This document shows positions 7,687 through 31,887 of a DNA stretch of 56,783 nucleotides, one piece after another. Made by a program: the position numbers and the translations under genes. Position 1 is the first letter of the stretch; every line of letters begins with the position of its first letter. Below the pieces are notes generated by a model. It ran no database searches, had not been told where the DNA came from, and was given only the letters and a program-made list of their open reading frames with translations. This DNA comes from Elusimicrobiota bacterium (GTDB taxonomy: Bacteria > Elusimicrobiota > Elusimicrobia > UBA1565), in contig JACPXC010000042.1 of NCBI GenBank assembly GCA_016196755.1, positions 1 to 56,783 on the forward strand, read 5' to 3'.

Positions 7687-7762
7687 CGCCCGCTCCAAAA
7701 TCCTTCCCAAGGGGCCCTTGAAATCCCGGATTCCAGGGGGCACACTGGAGGCGGAGGCCGAT

Positions 7763-9958: not shown

Positions 9959-9963
9959 CCGAG

Positions 9964-10245
9964 CTACCCTATCACCTTGCCGGAGAGGACCTGCGGCTCC
10001 TCGACGTTGAGGTGCCCCGCGTTCTGCGCCACCCACTCCTTCGCCTTCCGGAGACTCTCTTCGATCCCCGCCTTGTTGAGGCAGATGGTGACGGAAAAAC
10101 CGCCGGTATCCGTGCGCGCCAGCGTGTAGCCGACGAAGCCGTTGACGGAACGCATGAGGATCTGGACCTCGGTGGCGTTCTTCTCTAAAACGGCAAACAA
10201 CTCTTTTGCACCCTCGCCGGAATACGTCCTGACCACTGCTTCCAT
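9964..10245 (-). CDS. small antibiotic-biosynthesis-monooxygenase-like (dimeric alpha-beta barrel) protein
   Basis: The 93-aa protein (MEAVVRTYSGEGAKELFAVL...) has the beta-alpha-beta-beta-alpha-beta pattern of dimeric ferredoxin-like barrels. VRTYSGEGAKELF and GFVGYTLARTDTGGFSVTIC resemble ABM-type stress or heme-related proteins. No catalytic residues stand out, and the family assignment rests on overall pattern. An AGGAGG site lies 9 nt before the ATG. It is 15 nt downstream of the hydrolase gene, so the two are probably co-transcribed. Confidence 0.65.
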   Translation of the reverse strand: MEAVVRTYSGEGAKELFAVLEKNATEVQILMRSVNGFVGYTLARTDTGGFSVTICLNKAGIEESLRKAKEWVAQNAGHLNVEEPQVLSGKVIG

Positions 10246-10260
10246 ACCCGTGTCCTCCTG

Positions 10261-11034
10261 TCAGCCCTTTAACGGTACGCGCATCAGATCCTCGGCGGCC
10301 CGCGCCCAGGGCAGGCGGGCCAAGCGCCGGGCCAGGCCCTTCTCCGACGCGGTCGATAGATGCGTGAGAAGGACCTTCTTCGCCTCCGACGAGCGCCCCA
10401 GTTCCAGGGCCTCGGAGACGCGCAGGTGCCCTTCCATGCGCTGGTGATCGGCCAAGGTAGCCTCCACCGCCAACAGCGAGACGCCCCGCGCGAAGCGCGC
10501 CAGGCCCTGGTCCCAACCCGTGTCGCCGGTGTAGGCCAGCGAAAGCTTGCCGGCCTCGAGCCGGTAGGCCAAGGACTCCGTGGTATGCGGGACCTCGCGG
10601 CAGGAGACCTTCCAGCCCTCACCCCGCACGACCGAGCGCTCGCCCAAGTCCTCCACCGCGAGGCTCCAGCCGCGCGGTCGCAGCCAGGGGTGATAGGCGC
10701 GCTCGAGCCGCGCGGCGAAGGCCTTGAACCCCCGGGGACCGAAGAGCCGCAGGCGGCCCTTCCGGGGCTTGCCCTCGTAGCGCCACTTAAAAAGGAGGGC
10801 GGCCAGGTCGCCGACATGGTCGGGATGGCGGTGCGTGAAGAAGACCGTGCCGACGGCGTCGGGGTCGAGCCCGGCCCGGCAGAGCTGGCGGAGGTTCCCG
10901 AACCCGAGGTCGAAGAGCACCACCTCGGCGCCCAGGCGCAAGGCGTAGCCGGCGGGGTTGCGCAGCGTGCCCGCCCCCGGCCGCGCCGGCGCGAAGCAGC
11001 CCGAACCCAGTACTACGAACTCCGCGTCACTCAC
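10261..11034 (-). CDS. metallo-beta-lactamase fold hydrolase, RNase Z-like
   Basis: The 257-aa protein carries the metal-binding signature THRHPDHVGD (H68, H70, D72, H73), a third histidine in VPHTTESLAYR, and the metal-bridging aspartate in LAYTGDTGWD. The order and the late LLTHLS histidine match the RNase Z / ElaC-like branch. It could process tRNA 3' ends, but many related hydrolases have other substrates, so I do not assign rnz. The start codon is GTG at 11034. Its upstream neighbour ends 27 nt away in the same direction. Confidence 0.8.
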   Translation of the reverse strand: MSDAEFVVLGSGCFAPARPGAGTLRNPAGYALRLGAEVVLFDLGFGNLRQLCRAGLDPDAVGTVFFTHRHPDHVGDLAALLFKWRYEGKPRKGRLRLFGPRGFKAFAARLERAYHPWLRPRGWSLAVEDLGERSVVRGEGWKVSCREVPHTTESLAYRLEAGKLSLAYTGDTGWDQGLARFARGVSLLAVEATLADHQRMEGHLRVSEALELGRSSEAKKVLLTHLSTASEKGLARRLARLPWARAAEDLMRVPLKG

Positions 11035-11061
11035 GACGGGCCGCCATCCAGGCGACGAGCA

Positions 11062-11967
11062 TCACGGCAGCGCGCGCAGCCATGCGTTGACCTTCTTGAG
11101 CAAGCCCTCGCGAGCCGCGCCGCGGTAGTCACCCAGGCGCTCGCCGAGGCGGGAGAGCCCCTCGCGCCCGAGCGCGGCGGCGACCCGGGCGGGGCCGGCC
11201 GGATAGAGCCGGCCGTCGAGCACGGCATACTCGCCGCCGGCCCGCCACTCGAGGCGCCCGAGTTCGATCTCGTGGCGATCGAGGAAATCGACGGCCTGGT
11301 CGAAGGTGGGGGCGCCCGCGTCGCCCGAGCGAGCGGCCTCGCGATAAAAGAGATAGGCGTCCTCGGAGAACAGGTAGAGGTCCCAAGCCAGGCGGGCCAA
11401 GGCGTCCGCCGGCGCGGTGCCGGGGAAGACCGTGTCCGCGCGCTGGCCTTGGCGGCGCGCCCAGTCGCGCTGCTTGCGCCGCGACTCGAGCGACTCCCGA
11501 GCCTTGACGGTGGCGCCGCGAAGGCTCTTGGCGAAGTCGGGGTCCACCGACACCTTCTCGAGGGCGTGCTCGAGCGCGGCCTGGCGCGCGGCCATCTCGG
11601 CGTCGGCCACCTCGGCGGGCAGGGCCGCCGCCGCCTTCCAACGCTCCACGACGGAGAGCAGTTCGAACTCGAGCGGGGAGAGGCCGGGCGCACGGTCGGA
11701 GTCAACCACCAGGGCGGGGCGCTCGCCGCCCTCGTAGCGGAGCGCGGTGCCGGGACGGCGCGGACGCTCGACGACGCGCAGGTCTTCGGTGAGCCCCAGG
11801 AGCCGCCGCCCGGTCTCGCTCTTGCGCAGCTCGCGCGCCGTCTCTTTAAGAGCGGCCTTGAGCGCCGGGCCGGGCTCGGGGTCGGGACGGACCGAGTCGG
11901 GAGCCTGCGCGCGCGCGGCGCCGGCTAGCGTCAGGAGGATCGCCGCCGCCGCCAGCCGCCGGGCCAT
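11062..11967 (-). CDS. secreted protein of unknown function
   Basis: The 301-aa protein has a signal peptide (MARRLAAAAILLTLAGAARA) followed by a mostly helical, Ala- and Arg-rich mature region. It contains a conserved-looking SPLEFELLSVVERWK segment and a FLDRHEIELGRLEWRAGGEY segment near the C-terminus. No HExxH or other catalytic motif is visible. I recognise no family. It starts 3 nt after the stop of the upstream pentein gene, so it belongs to the same minus-strand operon. Confidence 0.65.
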   Translation of the reverse strand: MARRLAAAAILLTLAGAARAQAPDSVRPDPEPGPALKAALKETARELRKSETGRRLLGLTEDLRVVERPRRPGTALRYEGGERPALVVDSDRAPGLSPLEFELLSVVERWKAAAALPAEVADAEMAARQAALEHALEKVSVDPDFAKSLRGATVKARESLESRRKQRDWARRQGQRADTVFPGTAPADALARLAWDLYLFSEDAYLFYREAARSGDAGAPTFDQAVDFLDRHEIELGRLEWRAGGEYAVLDGRLYPAGPARVAAALGREGLSRLGERLGDYRGAAREGLLKKVNAWLRALP

Positions 11968-11970
11968 GGC

Positions 11971-12849
11971 CTAGAAGAGTTCGGCGGCCAGCGCGGCCAC
12001 CGAGGCGCCGGCCTTGATGAACTCGCGCGTGTCGACCGGCCGGGTCCCGAGGCCGATGGCCCGGATATGGCCGGCGGCCGCCGCCGCCCCCGCCTCGAGG
12101 ACGGCGGTGCCGTCCACCACCAGCGCGTTGCAGGGCAGCATCCCAGCGGCCTCGCGCTCGTCGGCGGCCAGGACGATCGGGAAGATCTTGAGGATGAGCT
12201 CGAGGCTGACCGGGTCGAAGGCGGGCGGCACGATCAGCACGGCCTCGGGGGTCAGTGGGCGAAAGCAGGAGGAGAGGTGCGTGAAGCGCTCATTGACGAG
12301 CTTGAGCAGGACCACCGGGGCCTCGAAGGCGTCCGCGGCCAGCGCATAGGATTCAGGGTCGGAGCGGAAGCCGTGGGCGCCCCACAGCAGGCGCTTGCCG
12401 GGATGCCAGGCGCAATCGGCGCCGGCCTCAAAGACCAGGGACTGGTCGCGCGGCTTGATGATCTTGTAGCCCGCGGCCTTGAACCAGGCCTCGAGGCGCT
12501 CGGACTCGCCGCGCCGCGCGGGGCGCCGGGAATGGCCGAGCAGGCAGACTTTTTCCATGCGCGGCGTCACGCCGGTCAGCGACTGCGTGGCCGCGAGCGC
12601 CAGATGCGGCAGGCCGACGACCGGGTCGAGCAGCTTGACCGGCCGGCCCAGGGTCTCGATCGCCGCCTTGACCCCGTCCCATTGCACGCGCGCGCGCTGG
12701 CGGTCGCCGTCGGAGCCCGGAAGGTCGGCCAGGGCGGAGAAATAGTCGGGCGGGCACATCAGGACGGCGGCCGGACCCGGCATGGCGGGGCAGTTCTTGA
12801 CCGAGAAGCCCTTGAGCTCCTCCGCGCTCGAATACAGCCGCGCTTTCAT
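11971..12849 (-). CDS. amidinotransferase / dimethylarginine dimethylaminohydrolase-like (pentein) protein
   Basis: The 292-aa protein matches the pentein superfamily. LMCPPDYFS is the N-terminal strand motif, FEAGADC (E141, D145) the substrate-binding acidic pair, HLSSCFRPL carries the catalytic histidine (H191), and LPCNALVV carries the nucleophilic cysteine (C240). Relatives hydrolyse or transfer guanidino groups of arginine derivatives. The exact substrate is unknown. A -10 box TAAACT with an upstream TG lies 7 nt before the ATG. The following secreted protein starts 3 nt after its stop. Confidence 0.8.
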   Translation of the reverse strand: MKARLYSSAEELKGFSVKNCPAMPGPAAVLMCPPDYFSALADLPGSDGDRQRARVQWDGVKAAIETLGRPVKLLDPVVGLPHLALAATQSLTGVTPRMEKVCLLGHSRRPARRGESERLEAWFKAAGYKIIKPRDQSLVFEAGADCAWHPGKRLLWGAHGFRSDPESYALAADAFEAPVVLLKLVNERFTHLSSCFRPLTPEAVLIVPPAFDPVSLELILKIFPIVLAADEREAAGMLPCNALVVDGTAVLEAGAAAAAGHIRAIGLGTRPVDTREFIKAGASVAALAAELF

Positions 12850-12856
12850 TTCGCGG

Positions 12857-12862
12857 AGTTTA
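12857..12862 (-). promoter_or_regulatory. extended -10 box of the pentein gene
   Basis: On the minus strand TGG-TAAACT (hexamer 12862-12857) ends 7 nt before the ATG at 12849, leaving essentially no leader. Confidence 0.5.
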
Positions 12863-12874
12863 CCATAAGGAAAC

Positions 12875-14143
12875 TCAAGGGAAGCGCGCCTCCACGAACG
12901 CGCGCGCGAAGGCGGCGCAGTCGAGCTCCTCGGTCCGGCCCGAAGGCTCGAGGACCAGGACCGTGCCGCGCGGCGCGGGCAGGAGGCAGACCGGCGAGCC
13001 GAACGCCACGCGCACCGCCCCGGCGCGCCCCCAGCCCAGCGGCAGGAGGACGACCGGGCGTCCGCGCGAAACCACGCGGCCCGCCACGGCGGACAGGAAG
13101 CGGACCCGGAAAGGCGTCTCGCGCGCGAGCTCCGCGTCGAGCTCGGCGCGCGCCGCGGCGGCCGCCTCGACCGGCAGCCCCAGCGCGACCGTCGCGGCCG
13201 CGAAGGCGGCGGCCCCCTCGGGGCAGAGCCGGCCCTCGGCCAGCGCCGCGCGGCCTCCCGGCGCCAGCGCGCGGGACAGCACCCACGCCTCGATCCGACG
13301 CCAGGCGCTCCTAAGGACGCAGCCCTCCCCCGAAGCGAGGAAGGCCGTAAACGACGGGTCGTTGGCGGCCAGGCGCGCCAGCACGGACGCCGGACGTCCG
13401 GCCGCCGGGCTTTCCCGGCACAGGCGCCCGGTCGCCTCGCGCAGGGCGTAGTAGCCGCGCGCGGTGACCGGGACTCCCCCCGCCAGCACCATGATGAGCT
13501 CGCCGCCCTCCGCGAGCAGGCGCAGGATGCGTCCGCCGATGCGCGGCCAGCCGTCCGCCGCGGTCAGGACGCGCCCCGGCCACGGTCGGGCGCCGGTGAC
13601 GCGCAGGAACCCCAGATGGACGCGGGTCATGAAGCCGGCGTACCCGCCCTCATCTAAGGAAGACAGCATGTCGAGTCCGAACGCGTCCACCGCGTTGACG
13701 AGCCGCGGCCGGCAGGCCGCGCCGCGCGCCGCGCGCAGGCCCTTGAGGGCGTGCCGGAACATGACCGGGTTGAGATGCAGCCAGTCGGGGTCGATCGGCG
13801 CGTGGGCCAGCAGGCAGGCCAGCGCGGCACGGCGCCCGGTCCGGCGCTCGGCCTCGGCGGCCAGCGCCGCGGCCTCGCGCAGAGGCGCGGCGCCGGGGTC
13901 GAAGGGATGCTCTGGCCGGCCGCCCTCGAGCGACCCGTAGATCTTGTCCTGCACCGCCAGCGAGGCGCCCGCAGGCAGGACCGACTCCGCGGCGGCCATC
14001 GCCCGCCCCACGCATTGGAGGAGCGGCTCGACCACCAGACGGCCGAAGACCCCCTTCTCGGGAGGCAGGCCTATGGCCTGGTACTCGGCCCGGGCAAAGA
14101 GCGCGAAGAGGTCCTCGGCGGTCCCTGGGGGGCGCAGGTCCAT
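12875..14143 (-). CDS. protein of unknown function
   Basis: The 422-aa protein (MDLRPPGTAEDLFALFARAE...) has no signal peptide. It is rich in Ala, Arg and Leu, with long predicted helices, a glycine-rich central stretch (LLAEGGELIMVLAGGVPVTA), and a hydrophobic patch near the C-terminus. I recognise no domain. The ATG at 14143 was preferred over one at 14239 because the longer version would cover the divergent gene. A -10 box TACAAT lies 8 nt upstream. It ends 25 nt before the start of the pentein gene and may be co-transcribed with it. Confidence 0.6.
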   Translation of the reverse strand: MDLRPPGTAEDLFALFARAEYQAIGLPPEKGVFGRLVVEPLLQCVGRAMAAAESVLPAGASLAVQDKIYGSLEGGRPEHPFDPGAAPLREAAALAAEAERRTGRRAALACLLAHAPIDPDWLHLNPVMFRHALKGLRAARGAACRPRLVNAVDAFGLDMLSSLDEGGYAGFMTRVHLGFLRVTGARPWPGRVLTAADGWPRIGGRILRLLAEGGELIMVLAGGVPVTARGYYALREATGRLCRESPAAGRPASVLARLAANDPSFTAFLASGEGCVLRSAWRRIEAWVLSRALAPGGRAALAEGRLCPEGAAAFAAATVALGLPVEAAAAARAELDAELARETPFRVRFLSAVAGRVVSRGRPVVLLPLGWGRAGAVRVAFGSPVCLLPAPRGTVLVLEPSGRTEELDCAAFARAFVEARFP

Positions 14144-18771: not shown

Positions 18772-19509
18772 ATGACCGATAACGCGCCGGATGCCGGGAC
18801 CAAGGTGCTCGACAAGGGCTTCGTGCGCCTCGTCGAGACGATGGGCGGGGACGCCGGAGTCGTCGAGGCCGCCCGGGTCTCCTACGCCGGGACCTCCAAG
18901 GGCGACGAGCGCGACAAGAAGCTGATCGCCTACCTGCTCAAGCACCAGCACCTGACCCCCTTCGAGCACGCGCTCTTCAAGTTCCACGTGAAGTGCCCGA
19001 TCTTCGTGGCCCGCCAGTGGTTCCGCCACCGCTTCGCGGCCTACAACGAGATCAGCTTCCGCTACACCCAGACCAAGGAAGACTTCTACTTCCCCGACGC
19101 CTGGCGGGCCCAGGACCTCAAGAACAAGCAGGGCTCGGTGAGCGCGAAGGACCTTGACCAAGCCGCGCTGTCGAAGGACTTCAAGGCCTCGGTCGAGCAG
19201 GCCTTCAAGACCTACGAGTCGATGCTCGCCGCCGGCGTCGCCCGCGAGATGGCGCGCATGGTCCTGCCGGTCAACCTCTATACCGAGTTCTACTGGACCG
19301 TCAACGCCCGCAGCCTCATGAACTTCCTGGCCCTGCGCGCCGACGGCCACGCCCAGGCCGAGATCCAGCGCTACGCCGAGGCGCTGGCCACGGTGTTCGC
19401 CGCGAAGTGCCCGTGGACCTACGAGGCCTTCCTCGCCAACGTCTGGAAGGGCGAGAACGCCCAACTCGCCGCCGCGAAGGAGAAGGCGTGCGCGCCGCTC
19501 TCCTCCTGA
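18772..19509 (+). CDS. thyX: flavin-dependent thymidylate synthase ThyX
   Basis: The 245-aa enzyme converts dUMP to dTMP using methylenetetrahydrofolate, FAD and NADPH. The ThyX signature RHR-x7-S is present as RHRFAAYNEIS (R85, H86, R87, S95), followed by FRYTQTKEDFYFPD. The C-terminal half has the ARMVLPVNLYTEFYWTVNARSLMNFLALR helix pair that binds FAD and nucleotide. The length is normal. The next gene starts inside its last 22 nt, so translation is likely coupled. Confidence 0.93.
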   Translation: MTDNAPDAGTKVLDKGFVRLVETMGGDAGVVEAARVSYAGTSKGDERDKKLIAYLLKHQHLTPFEHALFKFHVKCPIFVARQWFRHRFAAYNEISFRYTQTKEDFYFPDAWRAQDLKNKQGSVSAKDLDQAALSKDFKASVEQAFKTYESMLAAGVAREMARMVLPVNLYTEFYWTVNARSLMNFLALRADGHAQAEIQRYAEALATVFAAKCPWTYEAFLANVWKGENAQLAAAKEKACAPLSS

Positions 19510-20582
19510 GCCTGGCCCTGGCCGCCCCCACGGGCGCCCAGGACACCGCGGTCTCGAGCGCCCCGGCCTCCGCGGTCGGGAAGGTGCGCCGCGGGACCAT
19601 GAAGTTTTTGGTCCACGTGCAGGGGACGGTGCGGCCCGAGCAGGTCTACCGCCTCAAGTCCACCATCGACGGCCGCATCGAGTCGGTCGACAAGAAGCCC
19701 AACACCTGGGCCGACGAGCGCGACCCCATCGGAACCCTGCTCACCAAGGAGATGGCGGCGATGGCCGACTCCAACGCCACCACTCCCTCCGCCGTGCTCG
19801 AGGAGCGCTGGCAGCGCGTCTTCCAGCCCATCGACATCGCCTGCCCCGGGCGCTGCTTCGTGGTCAAGGTCTACGCCCAGCCCGGCACCCAGGTCAAGGC
19901 CGGAACCCTCCTCGCCGAGGCCGCCGGCAAACTGCGCCTGGTCGGCCGCGTGAAGCCCGGCGACACCCAGTGGGTGCGCGAGGGCCAGACGGTGCGCTTC
20001 TGGTCGAAGAAGGATCCGACGCGCCGCCAGACCGCCAAGGTCGAGCGCTTCGTGCGCGACGTCCAAGGCCAGCGGATCATCCCCGGCGGCACCTTCACCG
20101 TCCTGCTCACCCCCGAGGCTTGGCTCGACGCCAACACCGAGTGGGAGGGCGTCATCGAAGCCGAGGTGAAAAAGGACGTCCTGAGCGTCCCCACCCAGGC
20201 GATCCTGGTGCTCGACGGCGAGGCCTTCCTGCCGATCCGGGTCTCGACCGGCGTGTCGACCTACGACGAGACCGAGATCGTCGCCGGCATCGGCGAGGGC
20301 GTGCGCTTCTTGACGGTCGACCCCGCCGCCACCGACCTGCAGCGCCATATCCCGCCGCCCGAGACCCTGGAGCGTTTCGAGCTCGAGGAGGGCCGCAAGA
20401 AGCGCCGTCCCGAGCGGGAGCGCGACGACGCCGACCTGCGGCCCGCGCCGCGCACATCCATCGCGCCCGAGCGCTGGGAGATAAACCGCCGAAGCAAGCG
20501 GAAGGCCGGCGCCATCGACGTTTTCCCGGACGACCGTCCGCGAGGAGAAAGGGATGACCGCTATCCGAGCGACTTCCGCTGA
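19488..20582 (+). CDS. secreted membrane-fusion-protein-like (HlyD/RND adaptor-like) protein
   Basis: The 364-aa protein starts at GTG 19488, with GGAG (in GAAGGAGAAGG) upstream and a signal peptide VRAALLLSLALAAPTGA. The mature region has lipoyl- and barrel-like segments seen in periplasmic adaptors: GTVRPEQVYRLKSTIDGRIE, VVKVYAQPGTQVKAGTLLAEA and LVGRVKPGDTQWVREGQTVRF. The long coiled-coil hairpin seems short or absent. The C-terminal 90 residues are highly charged (RKKRRPERERDDADLR). No pump or outer-membrane partner lies nearby, so the partner is unknown. It overlaps thyX by 22 nt and the next gene by 29 nt. Confidence 0.6.
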   Translation: MRAALLLSLALAAPTGAQDTAVSSAPASAVGKVRRGTMKFLVHVQGTVRPEQVYRLKSTIDGRIESVDKKPNTWADERDPIGTLLTKEMAAMADSNATTPSAVLEERWQRVFQPIDIACPGRCFVVKVYAQPGTQVKAGTLLAEAAGKLRLVGRVKPGDTQWVREGQTVRFWSKKDPTRRQTAKVERFVRDVQGQRIIPGGTFTVLLTPEAWLDANTEWEGVIEAEVKKDVLSVPTQAILVLDGEAFLPIRVSTGVSTYDETEIVAGIGEGVRFLTVDPAATDLQRHIPPPETLERFELEEGRKKRRPERERDDADLRPAPRTSIAPERWEINRRSKRKAGAIDVFPDDRPRGERDDRYPSDFR

Positions 20583-21129
20583 GGGCTTGACGCTCTTCGC
20601 CAGCCTGCAGGTCCTGCGCGTCGAGGCGCGCTACCGGGCCCTGATGGCCAACGAGAAGGTCGTCGCGCGCCAGGAGTTCCTGGCCGGCTATGACCGCGGC
20701 GCGGCGCGCGTGAGGACCGACTCCTACGCGCTCTCCGGCCTGGCCGCCGACGGCGACCTGCTCATCGTGCGCTCGAGCAACCACCTCGAGGATTTGAACG
20801 CCGCCGCGACGCTCGTCAGCGACGCCGGCCTCGGCCGCCATCTCACGCCCTCCGCCCTCTACCTCGGCACGCTCGGCGACGCGGCGCGCGTCTCCGGCCG
20901 GTTCCTCTGCGTCGTCCCGCTCTCCGAAAAGCCGGCCGCCGCCGCGCCCGCGGGCGCGCGCCTGAGCGTCCTGGACTGCCGCGGACTCGGGCCGGCGCCG
21001 TTCGTGGCCCTGCTCGAGGGAGACGACGTCCTCATGGGCCGGGCCTTTCTCGCGGCCGTCGGCGCGTCCTCCGCCCCGGTCAGGATGGGCCTGCACGGGG
21101 AGATCCGCGACATCGTGGACTCGCTCTAG
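20554..21129 (+). CDS. possible chlorite dismutase-fold protein
   Basis: The 191-aa protein has YRALMANEKVVARQEFLAGYD and LSGLAADGDLLIVRSSNHLEDLNAAATLVSDAGLGRHL as two short stretches of resemblance to Cld/HemQ-type dimeric alpha-beta barrels (the pattern G-x-x-A-D-x-D-L...L-x-x-L). The conserved proximal heme histidine is not obvious, so heme binding is doubtful. The name is a fold-level guess. AGGAG lies upstream of its ATG, inside the adaptor-like gene. The GH57-like gene starts 3 nt after its stop. Confidence 0.45.
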   Translation: MTAIRATSAEGLTLFASLQVLRVEARYRALMANEKVVARQEFLAGYDRGAARVRTDSYALSGLAADGDLLIVRSSNHLEDLNAAATLVSDAGLGRHLTPSALYLGTLGDAARVSGRFLCVVPLSEKPAAAAPAGARLSVLDCRGLGPAPFVALLEGDDVLMGRAFLAAVGASSAPVRMGLHGEIRDIVDSL

Positions 21130-21132
21130 CGC

Positions 21133-23508
21133 GTGCGCAACAAGTACTACGCGGTCCACCTCCACCTCGACCATCCCGAACGCGAGAACCCCTGGCTCGA
21201 GGTGCCCGAGCCGGACCCCCAGGCCGAACCGTTCTTCGACGACTTCGATCGTCTGCTCCACCTCTCTTGGGGACCGCTGTCGGCCGCGGAGCACCGAGGT
21301 CCCGACGGCCGCGTGGAGGCGGTCGTCGACCTGTGGGCGCTCTGCGGCTTCGACGCCGCCCCCGCCGTCCTCGAGCGCCTGGAGCGGCGCGCCCCGCGCC
21401 TCTACGCGCGTCTGAGGGCCGGCCGCGCGGCCGTGGCCACCGCCTATCCCGCCCTGATCCTGCCGTTGGCCTCGGCCGACGACCGCCGCGCCGCGGTGCG
21501 CTGGGGCCTGGCGGACTTCCGCCGCCGCTTCGGCCGCCCCGCCGCGGGCTTCGTCCCGCCGGCCGGCGCCGTCGACGAGGACACGCTCGAGGCCCTGGCC
21601 CGCGAGGGCCTCGCCTTCGTCCTGCTCCCTGCCGCCGCCGCGGCCCGCTTGCGCAGGCGAGGCGACGAGTGGCTAGACACCGCCGCCGAAGCGCTCGACT
21701 GCTCGCGCCCGTACCGCTGGCGCTCGCGCAAGGACCCCGCGCTCGCCCTGTCGGTGTTCTTCTCCCCCGAGCGCTTCGAGCCCCACTCCTTGTTCGCCCG
21801 CCGTCCGCGCCCGCCCAAGCGCTCAGAGGTCGCGCTGGCCGACGACCCCGAGTCCGCCGGCGAGCGCCTGGCCGCCAAGCTGGCCGACGTCCTGCGCGTC
21901 AACGACGCGGCCGAACTGGCCCATGCGGCGTTCTCGGCCGACTGGTTCGGCGCGCGCCTGCCCTCCGGCGAACGCGCCCTGGCCCGGGCCATGGCCCTGC
22001 TCGAGCGCGAGGCCCCCGCCGAGCCCGCCGTGCACGAGGCCTTCCTCACCCTCTTCCCGCCGCCCCAAGAGGTCCAGGTGCGGCCGGCCTCGCGCGACTG
22101 TCCGCACGGCTTCGCGCGCTGGAGCGGCGACTGCGCCTGCCGCGTCGAAGGGCACGACGGGACCCCGTCCAAGGCCCCGGTCCGCTGGCGCGCGCCCCTG
22201 CGCGCCGCGCTCGACGGCCTCTCGGCCTCCCTGGCCGCCCAGGCCCGCGCCGCCTGGGCTCCGCTGGCGCGTGATCCCGCCGCCGTCGTCGACGCCGCCG
22301 CGCGCCTGGCCTTCGTCCCGACGCCCGAGGTCCAGCGCTCGTTCTTGGAAGAGGTCCTGGCCCGACATCCGACCCCCGAGGAGGCGGCCCAGGCCCTGCG
22401 CCTGGCCGAGCTCGAGCGCTGGCGCCTCAAGTCCCTGTCGCGCTGGGGCCTCGAGTCGGCCGACCCGTCGGGGGGCAACGCCGTCCAGGTCCTGCGCTGC
22501 GCGGCCCGGGCGCTCGACCTGGCGCGCGCCGCCCTCGGCACCGGCAAGGCCGAGGCGCTCGAGAAGACTTTCATCGAGGCGCTGTCCTTGGCGCCGTCGG
22601 ACGGCACCTCCTACTCCAACGCCGCCGCCGTCTACCTGAAGCTGGCCGCGCCGGGGCGCACCGGCCCCGGGCGCGTGGCCGCCTACGCGGCGGCGGCCGA
22701 CCACCTGTCCCACGAGCCGGGGCCGGTCCCCGCCCCCCCGGAGTCCCCGGCCTGGGAGACGCGCCTGCGGCCGCTCGTGCGCCGGAGCCTGCGCGACGGG
22801 CGGGCCTGGCGCGTGCTGTCCGCGGCCGGCGTCGATGTCCGCCACCGCCGCACCCTCGAGACATGGTCGGGGCTGGCCGCGGTGCGGCGCAAGGACGGCG
22901 ACGACCTCGAGGCGCGCTGCGCGCCGCTCCCCGAAGCCGAGCGGCCGGCCGCCGCCGGCCGCCTCGACGCGGCCTTCCTCACCGGGAACGCCGACGCACT
23001 GGACGCGGCCTTCGACGCGGCCTTCGGCTCAGAGTCCTGGCCTCTCGACGGCCTGTTCCCCAGCGCGCGCTGGCTGGCCGCGCGCTCGCTCAAGGAGCGC
23101 GGCAGTCCCGAGCGCCGCAAGCGCCTGGAGCCCTTCGCGCGGCTCTCACGGCGGGCCGCCCTCGCGTCGCCGGCGGAGTGGGCCACCGCGCTCGACGCCC
23201 TTGGCGACGCCTTGCCGGCCGAGGCCCTGCCCGGCGCCGCGGCCTGCAGGACGGCCGGCGCGCGCTCGGCGGCCGCCTTCGCGGCCGCGCCGGCTCCGGA
23301 GACGTTGAAAGATTTCGCGGCGTTCCTCGATTCGGCCCGGCGCGGCGGCCTGCGCCTGCCGCTCTGGGAACAGCGCGAGACGGTCTGGAAGGCGCTGGAA
23401 AGCATGCCCGCAAGCCCGGAGGGCGCCGCCGTGGCCGTCCTCCTGGGCCTGCCGGCCCCGCGGGTGACCGAGGCGGCGATCAAAGGAGAGACCCATGGTG
23501 ACGCGTAG
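21133..23508 (+). CDS. GH57 / DUF3536-family protein with degenerate catalytic motifs
   Basis: The 791-aa protein (GTG start) aligns in order with DUF3536 GH57 proteins. ENPWLE follows region 1, ALILPLASADDRRAAVRWG and DFRRRFGR precede region 2, and DCPHGFARWSGDCACR (about 322-337) is the Cys-rich family marker. The catalytic motifs differ from the family pattern as I know it. Region 1 reads HLHLDHP (9-15) instead of HGHFYQP. The LPET motif reads PPAGAVD (142-148). The DGETYGHH motif region reads SADWFGAR (268-275). The protein is therefore probably not an active glycosidase. It overlaps phoH by 14 nt. Confidence 0.7.
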   Translation: MRNKYYAVHLHLDHPERENPWLEVPEPDPQAEPFFDDFDRLLHLSWGPLSAAEHRGPDGRVEAVVDLWALCGFDAAPAVLERLERRAPRLYARLRAGRAAVATAYPALILPLASADDRRAAVRWGLADFRRRFGRPAAGFVPPAGAVDEDTLEALAREGLAFVLLPAAAAARLRRRGDEWLDTAAEALDCSRPYRWRSRKDPALALSVFFSPERFEPHSLFARRPRPPKRSEVALADDPESAGERLAAKLADVLRVNDAAELAHAAFSADWFGARLPSGERALARAMALLEREAPAEPAVHEAFLTLFPPPQEVQVRPASRDCPHGFARWSGDCACRVEGHDGTPSKAPVRWRAPLRAALDGLSASLAAQARAAWAPLARDPAAVVDAAARLAFVPTPEVQRSFLEEVLARHPTPEEAAQALRLAELERWRLKSLSRWGLESADPSGGNAVQVLRCAARALDLARAALGTGKAEALEKTFIEALSLAPSDGTSYSNAAAVYLKLAAPGRTGPGRVAAYAAAADHLSHEPGPVPAPPESPAWETRLRPLVRRSLRDGRAWRVLSAAGVDVRHRRTLETWSGLAAVRRKDGDDLEARCAPLPEAERPAAAGRLDAAFLTGNADALDAAFDAAFGSESWPLDGLFPSARWLAARSLKERGSPERRKRLEPFARLSRRAALASPAEWATALDALGDALPAEALPGAAACRTAGARSAAAFAAAPAPETLKDFAAFLDSARRGGLRLPLWEQRETVWKALESMPASPEGAAVAVLLGLPAPRVTEAAIKGETHGDA

Positions 23509-24457
23509 GCTCAAGCTCAACGACGACCAAGAGGCCTTGTCCCTGCTCGGCGAGCAGGACGCCAAGCTCAAGCGGCTCGAACAGGAGTTCGGGGTGGAGC
23601 TCTTCGTCCGCCACGACCCCGAGGGCAAGGAGCTGCATCTCTCGGTGCGCGGCTCCGGCCCTCGGGTGGAGAAGTGCCTCAAGCGCCTGCGCGAGCGCCT
23701 GGCCTCGGTGCGCGCCGGCACGGCCGCCGAGGACGAGCACTCGGTGCCGTCGTTTCCGACCGGTGTGGTGCCGGTCCCCGAGGACTCGCTGTTCGTCACG
23801 GCCTACGGCAAGCCGATCCGCGCGCGCGGCGCGCGCCAGCAGGAGTACGTCGACGCCATCAGCCGCGGGGATCTTACCTTCGGTGTGGGGCCCGCCGGCA
23901 CCGGAAAGACCTACCTGGCCGTGGCCTGCGCGCTGAGGGCTCTGTTGGCACGCGAGTGCAAGCGCGTGGTGCTGACCCGTCCGGTGGTCGAGGCCGGTGA
24001 GAAACTCGGCTATCTGCCCGGCGACCTCAACGAGAAGGTCAACCCCTACCTGCGCCCGCTCTACGACGCGTTCTGGGCCATGCTCGGCCCCGACAAGTTC
24101 CGGCTCTGGCGCTCGGAGGAGGTCGTCGAGGTCCTGCCGCTGGCCTACATGCGCGGCCGGACCCTCGACGACGCCTTCATCATCTTAGACGAGGCCCAGA
24201 ACACCACGGTCGAGCAGATGAAGATGTTCCTGACCCGCATGGGCCACGGCTCGCGCGTGGTCGTCACCGGCGACGTCACCCAGATCGACTTGGAGAAGCC
24301 CTCGCGCTCGGGCCTGGTCCTCATCGAGAAGATCCTGCACGGGGTCAAGGGCGCCAAGTTCGTGCGCTTCGACGAGGGCGACGTGGTCCGCCACCCGATG
24401 GTGCGCGAGGTCCTGCGCGCCTTCGACAAGTGGGAAGCCGCCGAGGGGAAGAAGTGA
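23495..24457 (+). CDS. phoH: PhoH family ATPase (YbeZ-like)
   Basis: The 320-aa protein has a short N-terminal RNA-binding-like region, then the PhoH ATPase core. Walker A is [12 protein letters not shown], with the family motif [27 protein letters not shown]. Walker B is [11 protein letters not shown], and [14 protein letters not shown] follows. It is known to act with YbeY in rRNA maturation or RNA metabolism. GGAGAG precedes its ATG, which lies inside the end of the previous gene. The following ybeY overlaps by 4 nt, the standard arrangement. Confidence 0.92.
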
Positions 24458-24891
24458 AGGTCGTCCTCCACGGCGAGAAGTCTCTAGGGAAAGGGGCGAA
24501 GGCCGCTGTCGAGAAGGCGGTCAAGGCCGCGCTCGGCCCCCGAGCGAAGAAGTCCGGCGAACTCTGCGTGGTGTTCGCCTCCGACGCGCAGGTCCATGCG
24601 CTCAACAAGCGCTTCCTCGGGCACGATTACAAGACCGACGTCATCTCGTTCCCGTATCCCCGGGCGAAGGGGGTCAAAGGCGACGCCCCGTTCGGCGACG
24701 TCTACGTGGCCCTCGGCGTGGCGAAGCGCCAGGCCAAGGAACTGGGGCATTCCCCGCTCCGCGAGGCGGCGACCCTGGCCGTGCACGGGACCCTGCACCT
24801 GGTCGGCTATGACGACCACAAGCCGGCCGACAAGAAGCGGATGTTCGCGCGGCAGGACCGGGTGGTGGTTGGCGTGTTCCGCGCCGGTTAG
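24454..24891 (+). CDS. ybeY: endoribonuclease YbeY
   Basis: The 145-aa protein has the YbeY metal site in [14 protein letters not shown] (three histidines), preceded by [13 protein letters not shown] and GDVYVAL. It is a zinc-dependent endoribonuclease for 16S rRNA 3'-end maturation. The start is GTG at 24454, overlapping the phoH stop (GTGA). The C-terminus is ordinary for the family. A promoter for the next gene starts 54 nt after its stop. Confidence 0.92.
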
Positions 24892-25339: not shown

Positions 25340-26836
25340 ATGAAATCGCACTTCGAATTCTTCAAGACCGACCTTCTCGCCGGACTCGTCGTTTTCCTCG
25401 TCGCCCTTCCCCTGTGTCTGGGCATCGCCCTGGCGAGCGGGGCGCCCCTGTTCTCCGGGATCATCGCGGGGGTGCTCGGAGGGATCGTCGTCGGCTCCCT
25501 GAGCAAGTCCAACATCAGCGTCGCGGGCCCCGCGGCGGGCTTGACGGCGATCGTGCTGGGTGCGATCACGGGCCTCGGGTCCTTCCCGACCTTCCTGCTC
25601 GCCGTTTTCCTCGCGGGCCTGATCCAGCTGGGACTCGGCTACGCCCGCGCGGGCGCGTTCTCGAGCTATCTCCCTTCCAACGTGATCGAGGGCATGCTCG
25701 CCGCGATCGGGCTCATCATCATCATAAAGCAGCTCCCCTACGCCGCGGGCTGGAGCGCCGGAGCGCCCCAGGCGGGCGCCCTCCTCATCACCGCGGCCTC
25801 CCTGGCGATCCTGGTCGCCTGGAACAACGTCCCCCGGCTCAAGGAGATCAAGGCCGTGCCGGGCGCGCTCGTCGCCGTGCTCGCCGGCGTCGCCATCAAC
25901 GAGGGCCTCAAGGCCGCGGGCTGGGCCTGGGCCCTGCGCCCCGACCAGCTCGTCACCCTGCCTGTTCCGGAGTCGGCGGCGGGATTTCTCCAGCTCTTCT
26001 CCCGGCCCGACTTCTCGATGATCTTCGACTCGCGTGTCTGGATCGTCGCCGTCACGATCGCGGCCGTCGCCAGCATCGAGACCTTGCTGTGCATCGAGGC
26101 CGCCGATAAGCTCGACCCCTGGAAGCGCTACACCGACACGAACGCCGAGCTCAAGGCCCAGGGCGTCGGCAACATGCTCTCGGGCATGCTCGGCGGCATC
26201 CCGATGACCTCCGTCATCGTCAGGACCTCGGCCAACGTGAATTCCGGCGGGCGCACCAAGCTGGCGGCCATCGCCCACGGCTTCTTCCTGCTCCTGGCCG
26301 TCGTGGCGATCCCCTCCCTGCTCAACCGCATCCCGCTGGCCAGCCTCGCGGCCGTCCTCCTGATGGTCGGCTTCAAACTCGCCAGCCCCGCCGTGTTCCG
26401 GCACATGTGGAGCGCGGGAAAGTACCAGTTCATCCCGTTTGTCGTCACCGTCTCCGCGGTCGTGTTCACGGACCTTCTCAAGGGGGTGGGCATCGGCCTC
26501 GCGGTCAGCGTGCTGTTCATCCTGATGGGGAACATGAAGCACGCCTACCATTTCAAGAAGGAGGAGCATGTCGAGGGGGAGACCATCCTATTGGAGCTGG
26601 CCCAGGAGGTCTCCTTCCTCAATAAGGCGGCGATCAAGCGCGTCCTCGCGGACCTGCCCGAGCGCACGCGGCTCACCGTGGACGCGTCGAAGACGGTCTA
26701 CATCGACCACGACGTGCTCGAGCTGCTCCGGGATTTCCTGCGCACGGGCTCCAAGGACCGGCGCATCCAGGTGAAGCTCCTAGGCTTTAAGAGCGCCTAC
26801 AAGGTCTCGGACGGCATCGAGGTCGGCGCACACTGA
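25340..26836 (+). CDS. SulP family anion transporter (possible bicarbonate transporter)
   Basis: The 498-aa protein has about 11-12 membrane segments. It has the SulP core PLCLGIALASGAPLFSGIIAG near the N-terminus, the VAGPAAGLTAIV motif, and a GGIPMTSVIVRTSANVNSGG loop. The C-terminal STAS domain is shortened (about residues 410-498). This SulP branch is often found with carbonic anhydrases, and some SulP proteins carry bicarbonate (BicA). With dabA one nucleotide downstream, a role in inorganic carbon uptake is likely but inferred. GGGAGA lies about 15 nt before the ATG. The 98-nt gap upstream shows no clear promoter. Confidence 0.85.
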   Translation: MKSHFEFFKTDLLAGLVVFLVALPLCLGIALASGAPLFSGIIAGVLGGIVVGSLSKSNISVAGPAAGLTAIVLGAITGLGSFPTFLLAVFLAGLIQLGLGYARAGAFSSYLPSNVIEGMLAAIGLIIIIKQLPYAAGWSAGAPQAGALLITAASLAILVAWNNVPRLKEIKAVPGALVAVLAGVAINEGLKAAGWAWALRPDQLVTLPVPESAAGFLQLFSRPDFSMIFDSRVWIVAVTIAAVASIETLLCIEAADKLDPWKRYTDTNAELKAQGVGNMLSGMLGGIPMTSVIVRTSANVNSGGRTKLAAIAHGFFLLLAVVAIPSLLNRIPLASLAAVLLMVGFKLASPAVFRHMWSAGKYQFIPFVVTVSAVVFTDLLKGVGIGLAVSVLFILMGNMKHAYHFKKEEHVEGETILLELAQEVSFLNKAAIKRVLADLPERTRLTVDASKTVYIDHDVLELLRDFLRTGSKDRRIQVKLLGFKSAYKVSDGIEVGAH

Positions 26837-26837
26837 C

Positions 26838-29741
26838 ATGGACACGCCAAACGCCGTCGGAGAGCACGGAAGCCTCACCACGCCCCATCACGAGAGCCTC
26901 GAGGCCGCCGTCAAGCACGCCGCGCACTGCCTCCCCGAGCAGGGGCCGATAGGGGTCTTCATCCACCACAACACCCTGCACGCCTTCCAGCACCTCCCCT
27001 TCGAGGAGGCGGTACAGGCGGCGGCGCTCTCGTACGGGACCGAGCCCTTCCTGCTCGAGGAGACCTACCGGGCGGATTTCGAGCGCGGCCGCATCCTCGG
27101 CGAGGACTTAGACGCGGTGCTCGCCGCCGAGCCCGACGCCCCGCTGTGGCCCGGCGGTCCGGCTCGCCGGCGCCTGCGTCGGCTGATGCTCGTTCCCGGC
27201 CCGGCGCTCGTGCGGGCGGAGAACCTCGACTGGCTGCTCGCCGAAGGCGGCCTGCTGCGCGGCCCGCGCGACGGCGCCCTGCTGGCCGCCTGCCTGCGCA
27301 GGACCCTCGCGCGCGCCGGGTCCGAGCCCGCCGTGCCGGCGCGCCCCCGCGACGCCCTGCTGGCCGTGGCCGGCGTCGACAGCGACGAGGCGGTCAACCC
27401 GCACTTGATCCGCGACTGCTCCGCGTTCCTTGACCAAGGCGTGGCCGCCTGGCCCATGCCCGGGCGGGAGAAGGGGTTCTACGCGGCCGTCGCGGCCTTG
27501 GCCGACCGTCCCCTAGCCCTCGAGCCGGCCCCGCTCTCCGGGCTCGGCCGGGCCTTCCGGCGCCAGGCCGAGAGCGGCCTGTCGCCGACCGCGGTCGTGC
27601 TCGAATGCCTCAACGACTTCCGCGTGCCGCGCTCCGATTGGGAGCGGCTGCTGACGGCGGAGCTCAGGGCCTTGCCCGGCTGGGCCGGTCTCATCTACAA
27701 GCTCGAGCGCGAGCCCGGCCTCGCCCCGCACCTGCCGCTGCCGTGCTCCCTGATGGACTTCCTCGCCGTGCGCTTGACCTTGACCCGCGTCGCCATCGAG
27801 AACGCGTGGGCCGGCCGCGGCGAGACGAGGCCTTTCTGGCCGCATTGGCGCGAAGCCGCGGCGGCGTCCGTCCCGGCGGAGGCGGAGCGCCGGGCCTCGG
27901 CCGCGCGCCTGTTCGACGCCGCCCGCATGCTGGGCCTGAGCACGGAGAAGGTCAGCCTCCTCACCGACGCCGAGTTCGCGGGCTTCCAAGCCGAGGTCGA
28001 GTCTTTCGGCGACTGGGAGCGCCGACGGCTCTGGCATTTGGCCTACGAGCGGCGCCACGAGCAGGACATCCTCAAGCTCTTGGCGGGCCACCGGTCCGTA
28101 ATCGACCCTCGGCGACCCGCCGAGCGGCCCTTCGCCCAGGTGGTGACCTGCCTCGACGAGCGCGAGGAGTCCTTCCGCCGGGCCCTCGAGGAGCTCGAGC
28201 CCTCGGTCGAGACCGTGGGCGCGGCGGGCTTCTTCAACGTCGCCGTCCAATACCAGGGCCTCGACGACCCCCACGGCGTGGCGCTGTGCCCCGTCGTCGT
28301 GACCCCGCGCCACTCTGTGACGGAGCGGGCCCGCGAGCACGCGCGCCCGCTGGCCGAGCTCCGCCGCGCCATGCGCCGCCGCTGGGCGTCCGCCGCCCAC
28401 GCGTTCGAGACGGGCTCGCGGTCTTTGTTCGCGGGCTGGGCCTTATCGCTGCTCAGCCTGCTGTTCCTACTCCCCCTAGCGGGCCGCACCGTCGCGCCGC
28501 GGCTCGCCGCCCGCGCCCGCGTCTGGCTCGGCCGGGGCGTCCCGCGCCCGAACACGGAGCTCGCGCTGCACCGGCCCGATGAGGGCGCGGCGTCCGCCGA
28601 GGGCGGGTTTCTGCCCGGCTTCACCGTCGCCGAGCAGGCCGAGCGCATCGCGGCGCTCCTGCGCGCGGCCGGCCTGAGCGGCGCCCTCTCCCGCCTCGTG
28701 CTGCTCTTGGGGCACGGCTCGACGAGCCTCAACAACCCGCACGAATCCGCCCACGACTGCGGCGCCTGCGGCGGACGACGCGGCGCCCCGAACGCGCGGA
28801 TCGCGGCGGCCATGGCCAACGACCCGCGCGTGCGCGCGCGCATGGCCGAGCTCGGCGTGAGCGTCCCGGAGGACTCGTGGTTCGTGGGCGGCTACCACGA
28901 CACCTGCAGCGACGAGGTGACCCTCTTCGACCTCGACGCCGTTCCCGCTGGCCACGAGGCGGAGCTCGAGATCGTGACGCGCGCGCGCCACGCCGCCCGC
29001 GCGGCCAACGCGCACGAGCGCGCCCGGCGCTTCGAGGCCGCCGACGACGACGACTCCGTCGCGTCGGCCCTGGAGCACGTGGAGGACCGCGCCGACCGCC
29101 TCTCGGAGCCCCGCCCCGAATACGGCCACGCCACCAACGCCGTCTGCATCGTCGGCCGCCGCAGCCTGACGCGCGGGCTCTTCCTCGACCGGCGGGCGTT
29201 CCTCGTCTCCTACGACCCGGACCGCGACCCCAGCCTCGACAGCCTGGCCGCCCTGCTCGGCGCCGGCGGGCCCGTCTGCGCGGGGATCAACCTCGAGTAT
29301 TATTTCTCGGTCGTCGACAACGAGCGCTACGGCTGCGGCACGAAGCTCCCGCACAACCTCACGGGCCTCGTCGGGGTCATGAACGGCCCCTCCAGCGACC
29401 TGCGCACCGGCCTGCCGTGGCAGATGGTCGAGGTGCACGAGCCGGTGCGCCTGCTGCTCATCGTGGAGAACACGCCGGAGCGCGTGCTCGAGGCGGCGCG
29501 GCGCAGCCCGGCCGTCGTTGAGCTCGTGACCAACCGCTGGATACGCGTCGCCGCGATGGACCCGGCCGACGGGACGATCCGGGTGCTGCGCGGGGACGCC
29601 TTCGTGCCGCTTCAAGGGGCCGTCGAACCTCCGATAGCGCTCTCCTCGGTCGATTGGTACCGCAACCGCCTCGAGCACCTGCCCATCGCGCGCATCGTCT
29701 CGACCGAGCCGCACCCGAGCGCGAGAGGGAGCAAGGCATGA
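26838..29741 (+). CDS. dabA: inorganic carbon transporter subunit DabA (DUF2309)
   Basis: The 967-aa protein begins with IHHNTLHAFQHLPFEEAV, typical of DUF2309/DabA. The beta-carbonic-anhydrase-like zinc site is complete: C438 and D440 in VTCLDERE, H626 in LGHGS, and C641 in AHDCGACGG. The H-to-C spacing of 15 matches the characterised Halothiobacillus protein, in which Cys, Asp, His and Cys are the ligands. DabA is thought to hydrate CO2 to bicarbonate in the cytosol, energised by the DabB cation flux. It starts 1 nt after sulP ends and overlaps dabB by 4 nt. Confidence 0.92.
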   Translation: MDTPNAVGEHGSLTTPHHESLEAAVKHAAHCLPEQGPIGVFIHHNTLHAFQHLPFEEAVQAAALSYGTEPFLLEETYRADFERGRILGEDLDAVLAAEPDAPLWPGGPARRRLRRLMLVPGPALVRAENLDWLLAEGGLLRGPRDGALLAACLRRTLARAGSEPAVPARPRDALLAVAGVDSDEAVNPHLIRDCSAFLDQGVAAWPMPGREKGFYAAVAALADRPLALEPAPLSGLGRAFRRQAESGLSPTAVVLECLNDFRVPRSDWERLLTAELRALPGWAGLIYKLEREPGLAPHLPLPCSLMDFLAVRLTLTRVAIENAWAGRGETRPFWPHWREAAAASVPAEAERRASAARLFDAARMLGLSTEKVSLLTDAEFAGFQAEVESFGDWERRRLWHLAYERRHEQDILKLLAGHRSVIDPRRPAERPFAQVVTCLDEREESFRRALEELEPSVETVGAAGFFNVAVQYQGLDDPHGVALCPVVVTPRHSVTERAREHARPLAELRRAMRRRWASAAHAFETGSRSLFAGWALSLLSLLFLLPLAGRTVAPRLAARARVWLGRGVPRPNTELALHRPDEGAASAEGGFLPGFTVAEQAERIAALLRAAGLSGALSRLVLLLGHGSTSLNNPHESAHDCGACGGRRGAPNARIAAAMANDPRVRARMAELGVSVPEDSWFVGGYHDTCSDEVTLFDLDAVPAGHEAELEIVTRARHAARAANAHERARRFEAADDDDSVASALEHVEDRADRLSEPRPEYGHATNAVCIVGRRSLTRGLFLDRRAFLVSYDPDRDPSLDSLAALLGAGGPVCAGINLEYYFSVVDNERYGCGTKLPHNLTGLVGVMNGPSSDLRTGLPWQMVEVHEPVRLLLIVENTPERVLEAARRSPAVVELVTNRWIRVAAMDPADGTIRVLRGDAFVPLQGAVEPPIALSSVDWYRNRLEHLPIARIVSTEPHPSARGSKA

Positions 29742-30907
29742 ACGACGGACTGCTGCTCGCGCTGCCGGTCGTCCTGCCGGCGCTGCTCTTCGCCGCGCTG
29801 GGCCTGGCCTGGCTCTTGGACCTGCGCCCGAGCGAGGCCGCGGTCGGACGAGCCACGTCGACCTGCTGGGCCCTCGCAGTCCTGGCGGTGGCGGCCCTCG
29901 TGCTGGGTTCCCTCGGCGGGCTGCCCCCGCCGAGCGTCGAATTCGGCCGCTGGTTTTTCGGCGGCGGCCGGCACGTCACGCTGGCCCTGCGGGCAGACGC
30001 CCTCTCGCTGGTCATGCTCTCGCTGTCCGCGAGCCTGGTCGGGATCGTCGCCGTCTTCTCGCGGCGCTACATGCACCGCGACCCCGGCTTCCATCGCTTC
30101 TTCATCCTGCTGAACATGTTCGGCGCCGGCGTCATGCTGCTGTTCGCGGCGGAGCCTTTCGAGCTCCTGGCCGTCGGCTGGGAGCTCGTCGGGGCGGCCT
30201 CCGTCCTGCTCGTGGCGTTCTACCAGCAGCGCGAGGCCCCGGCGCGCGGGGCGCTGCGCGTCCTCGCCGCCTACCGCTGCGCCGACATCGGCCTGCTGGC
30301 GGGGATCGCCCTCCTGCACCACGCCCACGGCGCGCCCTCAGGAGCTACGGCGGCCGCGGTAGCCTTCTGCTTCCTTTTCGCCGCGATGGGCAAGTCGGCG
30401 CAGGTGCCGTTCTCGGGCTGGCTGCCGCGCGCGATGGAGGGCCCGACGCCCTCGAGCGCCATCTTCTACGGCGCGCTGTCGGTGCACGCCGGCGCCTACC
30501 TGCTCCTGCGCGCGCGCCCTTTCCTCGACGCCTCGGCCTGGGCGGCGGGGGCGGTCGTCGCCGTCGGGGCGCTCACGGCCCTGCAGGGCGCCCTCGTCGG
30601 ACGGACCTGCCCCGACGCGAAGACCTCGCTCGCTCACGCGACGGCGACCCAGCTCGGCCTGATTTTCGTCGAGATCGGTCTCGGCTGGGACGTGCTCGCG
30701 CTGTGGCACATCGCCGGCCACGCCGTCCTGCGCACCGCCCAGTTCCTGCGCGCGCCCTCCCTGCTCCACGACCACCACCGGCTGCATTCGGGCGCGGGCG
30801 GCCATCTGACCTCGGCCGGGGCGCCCTTCGGGGCGCTGCTGCCGCGTCCGTTCCAAGACTGGCTCTACGGCTTCGCCCTGGACCTGCGGGGCCGGGGGCT
30901 GTCATGA
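29738..30907 (+). CDS. dabB: DabB-like subunit (NuoL/ND5-type antiporter family)
   Basis: The 389-aa polytopic protein has the ND5 channel core. E149 lies in GWELVGAASVLL, K219 in AMGKSAQVPFSGWLPRAMEGPTPSSA, and a histidine in ALSVHAGAYLL. Further on are CPDAKTSLAHATATQLG and HAVLRTAQFL, where the usual lysine is an arginine. It should supply the cation flux that drives DabA. It is shorter than typical DabB because it ends soon after the TM12-like segment. AGAGGGAG precedes the ATG, which overlaps the dabA stop. Confidence 0.85.
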   Translation: MNDGLLLALPVVLPALLFAALGLAWLLDLRPSEAAVGRATSTCWALAVLAVAALVLGSLGGLPPPSVEFGRWFFGGGRHVTLALRADALSLVMLSLSASLVGIVAVFSRRYMHRDPGFHRFFILLNMFGAGVMLLFAAEPFELLAVGWELVGAASVLLVAFYQQREAPARGALRVLAAYRCADIGLLAGIALLHHAHGAPSGATAAAVAFCFLFAAMGKSAQVPFSGWLPRAMEGPTPSSAIFYGALSVHAGAYLLLRARPFLDASAWAAGAVVAVGALTALQGALVGRTCPDAKTSLAHATATQLGLIFVEIGLGWDVLALWHIAGHAVLRTAQFLRAPSLLHDHHRLHSGAGGHLTSAGAPFGALLPRPFQDWLYGFALDLRGRGLS

Positions 30908-31887
30908 TCCTGCCCGCGCTCCACGCCGCCCTCGCCGTCGGCCTGGTCCTCTCGGCGCCCCGAAGCCTACGGACGACGCGCTGGACGCTCGGCGTGCTGT
31001 GGATCGGCGCCTGCGCGAGCGCCGCCTATCTTTCCCGGAGCACGGCGGGCGCGGCGCTGGCCTGGGCGGCGGCGTTTGCGCCGCTGCTCATGGCGGGGGT
31101 CTTCGAGCGCCCCGCCGGCCCTTGGGCCGCGTTCTCTCTGGCGTTCTTCCCGGCGCAGACCGGGCTGGCCGCCGCCTTCGAGCGCGGACCCTTGCTTCCG
31201 ACAGCCCTGCTCCTCAACGGACACCTGGGCGCGCTCACGGCGTCGCGCCTACTCGCGGCGCTGCCGCCCGACGACGCCGCCGCGGCGCGTCCGTGGGTCG
31301 TAGCGCTGGCGCTGTTTATGGCGCTGGCGTCGGCGGTCCTCGCCCTCAGGGAGACCCGGCCGCGGCGCGTGCTGGCGCGCCTCGCGGCGGGACAGGGAGC
31401 CCTGATCCTGGCCGGGCTGGCCTGCGGCAACGCCGCCGCCCAGGCCGGCGCGCTCGCCCTCGGCCAAGCCTCGGCCGTGGCCATGACGATGCTGGCCGGC
31501 GTCTGCGCGAGCCTCGAGTCGCGAGTGGGCGCCGCGCTCGAGCGTCCCGGCTACCTCGGCCTCGCCGCCGGCGCGCCGCGCCTGGCGACCTTCTTCGCGG
31601 TAGCCGCGCTGACGCTGGCCGGCCTGCCGCTGACGATGGGGTTCCCCGCGCTGGAGCTCCTTCTCGGCGGCCTCTTCGAGGTCGGCCCCGCGGGCTTGGC
31701 GCTGCCCGTCGTCTCAGCGCTCAACGGCTTCGTCGTCCTGCGTCTTTTCGCCCTGCTGTTCTGGGGGCCGGCTCTAGACGCCGCGCGCGGCATGCCCGAC
31801 GCCCTCCCGCGCGAGCGCTGGTTCCTGAGCGCGGCCGTGCTGTTCCTCCTGTTCGGCGGCCTGTTCCCTTCGGCGCTCCTTCCCTAA
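30904..31887 (+). CDS. second antiporter-like membrane subunit of the DIC locus (NuoM/NuoN-like, degenerate)
   Basis: The 327-aa polytopic protein overlaps dabB by 4 nt (ATGA). Its C-terminal half, GLAAGAPRLATFFAVAALTL then GLPLTMGFPALELL, matches the end of the proton-translocating domain of NuoM/NuoN proteins. LARLAAGQGALILAGLACG resembles the preceding helix. The conserved glutamate and lysine of the N-terminal half are not visible. It may add a second membrane unit to DabB or replace its missing C-terminus. It is the last gene of the locus. Confidence 0.65.
   Translation: MILPALHAALAVGLVLSAPRSLRTTRWTLGVLWIGACASAAYLSRSTAGAALAWAAAFAPLLMAGVFERPAGPWAAFSLAFFPAQTGLAAAFERGPLLPTALLLNGHLGALTASRLLAALPPDDAAAARPWVVALALFMALASAVLALRETRPRRVLARLAAGQGALILAGLACGNAAAQAGALALGQASAVAMTMLAGVCASLESRVGAALERPGYLGLAAGAPRLATFFAVAALTLAGLPLTMGFPALELLLGGLFEVGPAGLALPVVSALNGFVVLRLFALLFWGPALDAARGMPDALPRERWFLSAAVLFLLFGGLFPSALLP

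Follow-up and report, generated by a model that had tools for sequence, protein, structure and literature searches.

Can a glycoside hydrolase gene whose catalytic motifs have been replaced still encode a protein that is worth keeping, and what might such a protein do? This question was raised by an open reading frame from a member of the phylum Elusimicrobiota, which we analyzed within a DNA stretch of 56,783 nucleotides (the window). The candidate GH57/DUF3536 pseudoenzyme gene is located at positions 21133-23508 (+) and encodes 791 aa from a GTG start. A first-pass annotation had given exactly these limits and 791 codons, and the strings that it quoted (HLHLDHP, PPAGAVD, SADWFGAR, and DCPHGFARWSGDCACR) were all found in the frame. 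The window gene is called copy B below, and the second DUF3536-type GH57 of the same genome is called copy A.

Domain assignment

The window protein was compared with the Pfam models. It matched PF12055 (DUF3536) over residues 351-642 (22183-23058, +) with 93.8 bits (1.6e-26), which passed the gathering score of 25 bits. The match to PF03065 (GH57) was 15.2 bits (0.013) and failed the gathering score of 21.2 bits. Copy A from the same genome gave 51.4 bits (1.3e-13) for PF03065 and passed both models. When PDB sequences were searched with only the window protein, no GH57 enzyme was matched; GH57 was reached only by the family profile. In addition, a single-sequence search of the genome contigs with the window protein gave no matches. 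The GH57/DUF3536 scaffold that had been proposed for the protein was upheld by the PF12055 match and by the alignment of the motif columns.

Catalytic motifs in the window protein

The GH57 machinery consists of a Glu on strand 4 and an Asp on strand 7 (PMC6037648). A motif alignment was made of the window protein with 36 paralogue-A proteins and 19 intact paralogue-B proteins. The catalytic columns were anchored by a family profile alignment to solved GH57 enzymes, namely 1k1w, a 4-alpha-glucanotransferase (E123), and 3n8t, a branching enzyme (E183 and D354), with residue numbers counted off the printed alignments. Their catalytic function is well established. In paralogue A, Glu was found in 40 of 40 rows and Asp in 39 of 39 rows having a residue at those columns.

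Both columns were substituted in the window protein. At the CSR-3 position, GFVPPAGAVD (residues 139-148; 21547-21576, +), WLPETA was replaced with VPPAGA, and the nucleophile Glu became Ala144 (E144A). At the CSR-4 position, SADWFGAR (residues 268-275; 21934-21957, +) stood for DGETYGHH. The ATDGETYGHH stretch was replaced with AFSADWFGAR, and the acid/base Asp became Ser268 (D268S). HLHLDHP (residues 9-15; 21157-21177, +) occupied the CSR-1 position in place of HGHFYQP. At the CSR-2 position (residues 100-107; 21430-21453, +), Q103T and H107A were found, and the GHG upstream was deleted. At the presumed CSR-5 position, SLSRWGLES (residues 434-442; 22432-22458, +) took the place of MYTSCGWFF. 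We infer that the TSCGWFF stretch corresponds to CSR-5 because it follows the barrel and ends in two aromatic residues (PMC6037648). The other replaced residues were F12, Y13, Q14, W141, E270, H274, and H275. H9, H11, P15, and G273 were kept, as was much of the scaffold: of 77 canonical positions that are strongly conserved within residues 1-320, the window protein retained 42.

According to the first-pass annotation, all recognizable catalytic motifs had been replaced. This was correct for both catalytic residues, and the quoted strings were located at the true motif columns of the DUF3536 proteins. However, the four retained residues showed that the motifs were gutted and not wholly replaced. 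No true catalytic motif was found elsewhere in the window protein by full-length alignment or by the anchored profile. The Cys motif DCPHGFARWSGDCACR (residues 322-337; 22096-22143, +) was kept in the window species as had been stated, but it was deleted in both congeners. This meant that it was not a retained marker of the lineage.

Repeated loss of catalytic residues

A tree was built after the motif columns were removed. The B proteins of the order grouped apart from the A proteins, and the window's family formed one clade with 100% support. On the tree, loss of a catalytic residue of either kind required at least four changes, and the nucleophile and the acid each required at least three. 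Among the relatives, such losses occurred independently about four times. Genera g2 and g3 kept both Glu and Asp, with motif 1 and CSR-5 changed. Genus g4 kept Glu and lost Asp. In the window's genus (g1), the nucleophile was lost in three species (Ala, Ala, and Gly) and Asp was kept in two of the three, so that the double loss was restricted to the window species. Outside the window's family, genus g7 lost both residues, and one further genome (G050) lost Glu.

Copy B was absent from three sister species in g7 (G022, which is 99% complete, G014, and G019). In G022, the HlyD-like gene was directly followed by phoH with no B between them. This clean absence indicated that copy B is dispensable in that genus. 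As judged by eye, at least part of copy A was present in all nine genomes with a dead copy B, but also in most genomes with an intact copy B. One syntenic gene could be traced across the order from an intact state, often behind glgC, to copies in which the substrate motifs have changed, then to copies lacking the nucleophile, the acid, or both residues, and finally to absence in some sister species. The path to GH57 inactivity is rarely visible. Such a series allows testing of what keeps a dead enzyme, a binding role or the overlap with phoH.

Motif-1 decay was also observed in copy B of genus g10, where the sequences were HGCFDSP in G016 (L014) and HGHFDQS in G050 (L065). In G050, the nucleophile was Gly, and the Cys motif was gone. 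Genus g10 may represent this decay at an early point.

The phoH-ybeY locus and glgC

Throughout the order, copy B was the gene immediately preceding phoH-ybeY, and this arrangement recurred in one genome from a different family of the class. The B stop codon overlapped the phoH start or was within 5 nt of it in all measured loci but one. In the window, the overlap was 14 nt. The end of the GH57 frame (23482-23508, +) contained the ribosome-binding-like sequence AAAGGAG at 23482-23488, and the phoH start codon was at 23495. The phoH gene (23495-24457, +) was followed by ybeY (24430-24891, +). Upstream, thyX (18772-19509, +) and a gene for an HlyD-like protein (19407-20582, +) were conserved neighbors. 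A putative chlorite-dismutase/HemQ-like protein was encoded at 20554-21129 (+), with a sub-threshold score of 23.6 vs 25 bits. This gene was found at this place only in g1-g3 of the family, and glgC held the slot in other members of the order.

The glgC gene was immediately upstream of many intact B genes. In three genomes that had no copy B (G017, G028, and G037; loci L199, L200, and L201), the slot before phoH held a glgC-type gene. In the window's family and g7, glgC was found only as distant relatives (~38-46% identity) elsewhere in the genome. With genome lists compiled by hand, this glgC type was present in 1 of 9 dead-B genomes vs 12 of 17 intact-B genomes (Fisher p 0.011), a value that is suggestive only, given that the species are not independent. 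There were exceptions in both directions. Two intact-B genomes of g14 as well as g2 and g3 kept Glu and Asp without the adjacent glgC type, and G050 retained glgC despite its lost nucleophile. The correlation suggested that the intact protein probably acted in storage-glucan metabolism, at a step linked to glgC.

Other features of the window were also noted. Directly downstream of phoH-ybeY, 25340-31887 (+) probably encodes an inorganic-carbon uptake cluster, with a SulP-type transporter (25340-26836, +), DabA (26838-29741, +; E 9e-235), and two overlapping Proton_antipo_M frames (29654-30907 and 30703-31887, +). Six long frames in 1852-13311 (starting at 1852, 3436, 5067, 7622, 10360, and 12067) gave no Pfam match at 1e-4; because several overlapped with neighboring frames, not all are necessarily genes. 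A UvrC-like protein with GIY-YIG, UVR, and RNaseH domains was encoded at 39411-40718 (+). It has 435 aa, and UvrC is usually longer.

Selection on the inactive protein

The first-pass annotation had stated that selection kept the frame open. For a random stretch of 791 codons at this GC content, the chance of an open frame was P ~7e-5 to 3e-4. Frame openness alone is modest evidence, and conservation between species is much stronger. The B gene of G002 was full-length, and that of G001 ended at a contig edge. The amino acid identity between the window species and G002 was 59% for copy B and 73% for copy A, with dN 1.4-1.75 times higher for B. The three parts of copy B were 66, 57, and 52% identical in this comparison, and the highest value belonged to the pseudo-catalytic GH57 barrel domain (~residues 1-320; 21133-22092, +), the most conserved part of the protein.

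In g1, dS was saturated and omega was unreadable, and therefore the parallel lineage g7 was used. In g7 (dS 0.9-1.6), omega was 0.10-0.12 for dead copy B, 0.056-0.064 for copy A of the same genomes, and 0.04-0.06 for phoH. In the G051-G010 pair, the barrel domain had the lowest omega (0.063) and the C-terminal part the highest (0.155). The dead protein is constrained, about half as strongly as the intact paralogue. For dN/dS among close relatives, values could be read in g7 but not within the window's genus, and the claim of selection was borne out by the open, alignable frame and by the constraint measured in g7. A pseudogene was ruled out by the open frame, the full-length homologue in G002, and the purifying selection in g7.

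An open frame might also be favored simply because the gene overlaps phoH. Stop codons in copy B would be polar on phoH-ybeY, and the frame might be kept only for phoH translation, with the protein being junk awaiting deletion. The overlap or abutment in nearly all B loci, the faster evolution of B than of copy A, and the clean absence of B from sister species in g7 were consistent with this explanation. However, polarity alone would not conserve residues. Purifying selection at the amino acid level was observed in g7, and the three-way identity in g1 was ~0.48 at ordinary columns vs 0.013 from composition, a baseline that is not a model of neutral divergence. We therefore considered it quite unlikely that phoH translation is all that maintains the frame. 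Because both catalytic residues are gone and the frame is kept by selection, a non-catalytic role, which had been proposed as possible, became likely. The window gene is probably a pseudoenzyme, a folded, non-catalytic former alpha-glucan enzyme that is co-translated with phoH and has a binding or scaffold role.

Predicted fold and the former sugar pocket

The structure was predicted using AlphaFold2 with 44 canonical relatives (pLDDT 83.8 and pTM 0.86). The predicted model had a (beta/alpha)7 barrel and a helical bundle, as in the GH57 fold. The alignment was composed of relatives with intact motifs and was biased to the GH57 fold, and the model indicated compatibility more than proof. The nearest solved structures in VIA-align were GH57 enzymes (Z ~24-28), followed by polysaccharide deacetylases (CE4-type) and GH38 mannosidases (Z 12-20).

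The conservation of the pocket was compared among the three species of g1. Identity was 37/43 (0.86) at the retained canonical invariant columns, 14/33 (0.42) at the replaced canonical columns, and 108/227 (0.48) at the other domain columns. The scaffold was kept, but the pocket columns were no better conserved than the background, and this disfavored the old cleft as a conserved sugar site. The first-pass annotation had suggested glycogen or alpha-glucan binding as an example of a non-catalytic role, and the protein could be a binder or sensor that still uses this cleft. The ancestral substrate was probably an alpha-glucan (PMC11206854; a treY fusion; treZ and glgC neighbors), catalytically incomplete GH57 relatives occur in several specificity groups (PMC6037648), and the protein still has H9, H11, and P15 as well as several aromatic residues. 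Nevertheless, W141, H107, Q103, H274, H275, Q14, Y13, and CSR-5 were all replaced, the columns concerned were not specially conserved in the genus, and the glgC partner was gone from the locus. These results left the proposed glucan binding weak, and we regard it as unlikely. Binding at another surface of the protein is possible.

HLHLDHP was the exception among the replaced motifs, being identical in all three species of g1. GH38 mannosidases and deacetylases have metal-binding His/Asp clusters at the same strand. Since these folds were the next structural neighbors, and Asp at position 13 recurred in g3, g4, and the two g10 loci, the old cleft might have been rebuilt for other chemistry, with the conserved H9-x-H11-x-D13-H14 cluster binding a metal. 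This is improbable, because no other strictly conserved ligand was present at the former catalytic columns, positions 144, 268, and 270 varied within the genus, and g2 did not have the Asp. It is equally doubtful that the cluster (H9, H11, D13, and H14) binds a metal or new ligand in a new function coupled to phoH-ybeY. If true, the rebuilt cleft would be a gain of a new biochemical function.

A possible route to the pseudoenzyme

For the pseudoenzyme with a binding or scaffold role, the following course may be proposed. Ancestral copy B would have been a DUF3536-type GH57 alpha-glucan hydrolase or transferase beside glgC. The loss of the glgC partner, with copy A covering the chemistry, may have freed B from the need to preserve catalysis. 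Decay would have begun with motif 1 and CSR-5, then reached the nucleophile, and then the acid in the window species. A folded non-catalytic protein would have persisted, co-translated with phoH. Its present role would most likely be scaffolding or partner binding via the barrel surface and not via the old sugar pocket.

Comparison with known GH57 proteins

Canonical DUF3536-type GH57 proteins, such as PoGH57 of Pontibacter and copy A, have the same order of GH57 and DUF3536 domains as the window protein and a length of ~800 aa. The Pontibacter enzyme acted on amylose by hydrolysis, and 4-alpha-glucanotransferase activity was inferred (PMC11206854). Copy A of the window genome (contig C32, locus L002; 805 aa) adjoins treZ and is fully canonical, carrying HGHFYQPPRENPW, WLPETA, and ATDGETYGHH. 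It shares the Cys motif and ~30% identity with the window protein. In contrast to the canonical type, which has HGHFYQP, WLPETA (in copy A), and DGETYGHH, the window protein has neither catalytic residue.

GH57 proteins without catalytic residues have already been described, with incomplete relatives in several specificity groups (PMC6037648). The window gene is therefore a genuine case of a dead enzyme, although one with precedents. Like the window protein, these groups have the GH57 fold, lack Glu and/or Asp, have no expected activity, and stand adjacent to intact families. However, they are named in relation to other specificities, and the text does not mention any DUF. Unlike them, the dead copies of the window type are nested in the clade of an active paralogue and arose several times within one order. 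A catalytically dead DUF3536 subgroup appears to be undescribed within the literature searched, in which a single paper names DUF3536. The CE4 pseudoenzyme BA3943 (PDB 7bkf), which was met as a structural neighbor, is likewise a degenerate carbohydrate-active fold kept as a protein; it belongs to a different family and is a mere analogy.

DUF3536-type GH57 enzymes have received little study, and the analysis ties them to glgC and treY/treZ. A DUF3536 GH57 was also found fused in-frame to malto-oligosyltrehalose synthase (treY) at L113:5995-11457. A similar fusion was observed at L176:5986-11409, where a DUF3536 GH57 was in one frame with an alpha-amylase-family part.
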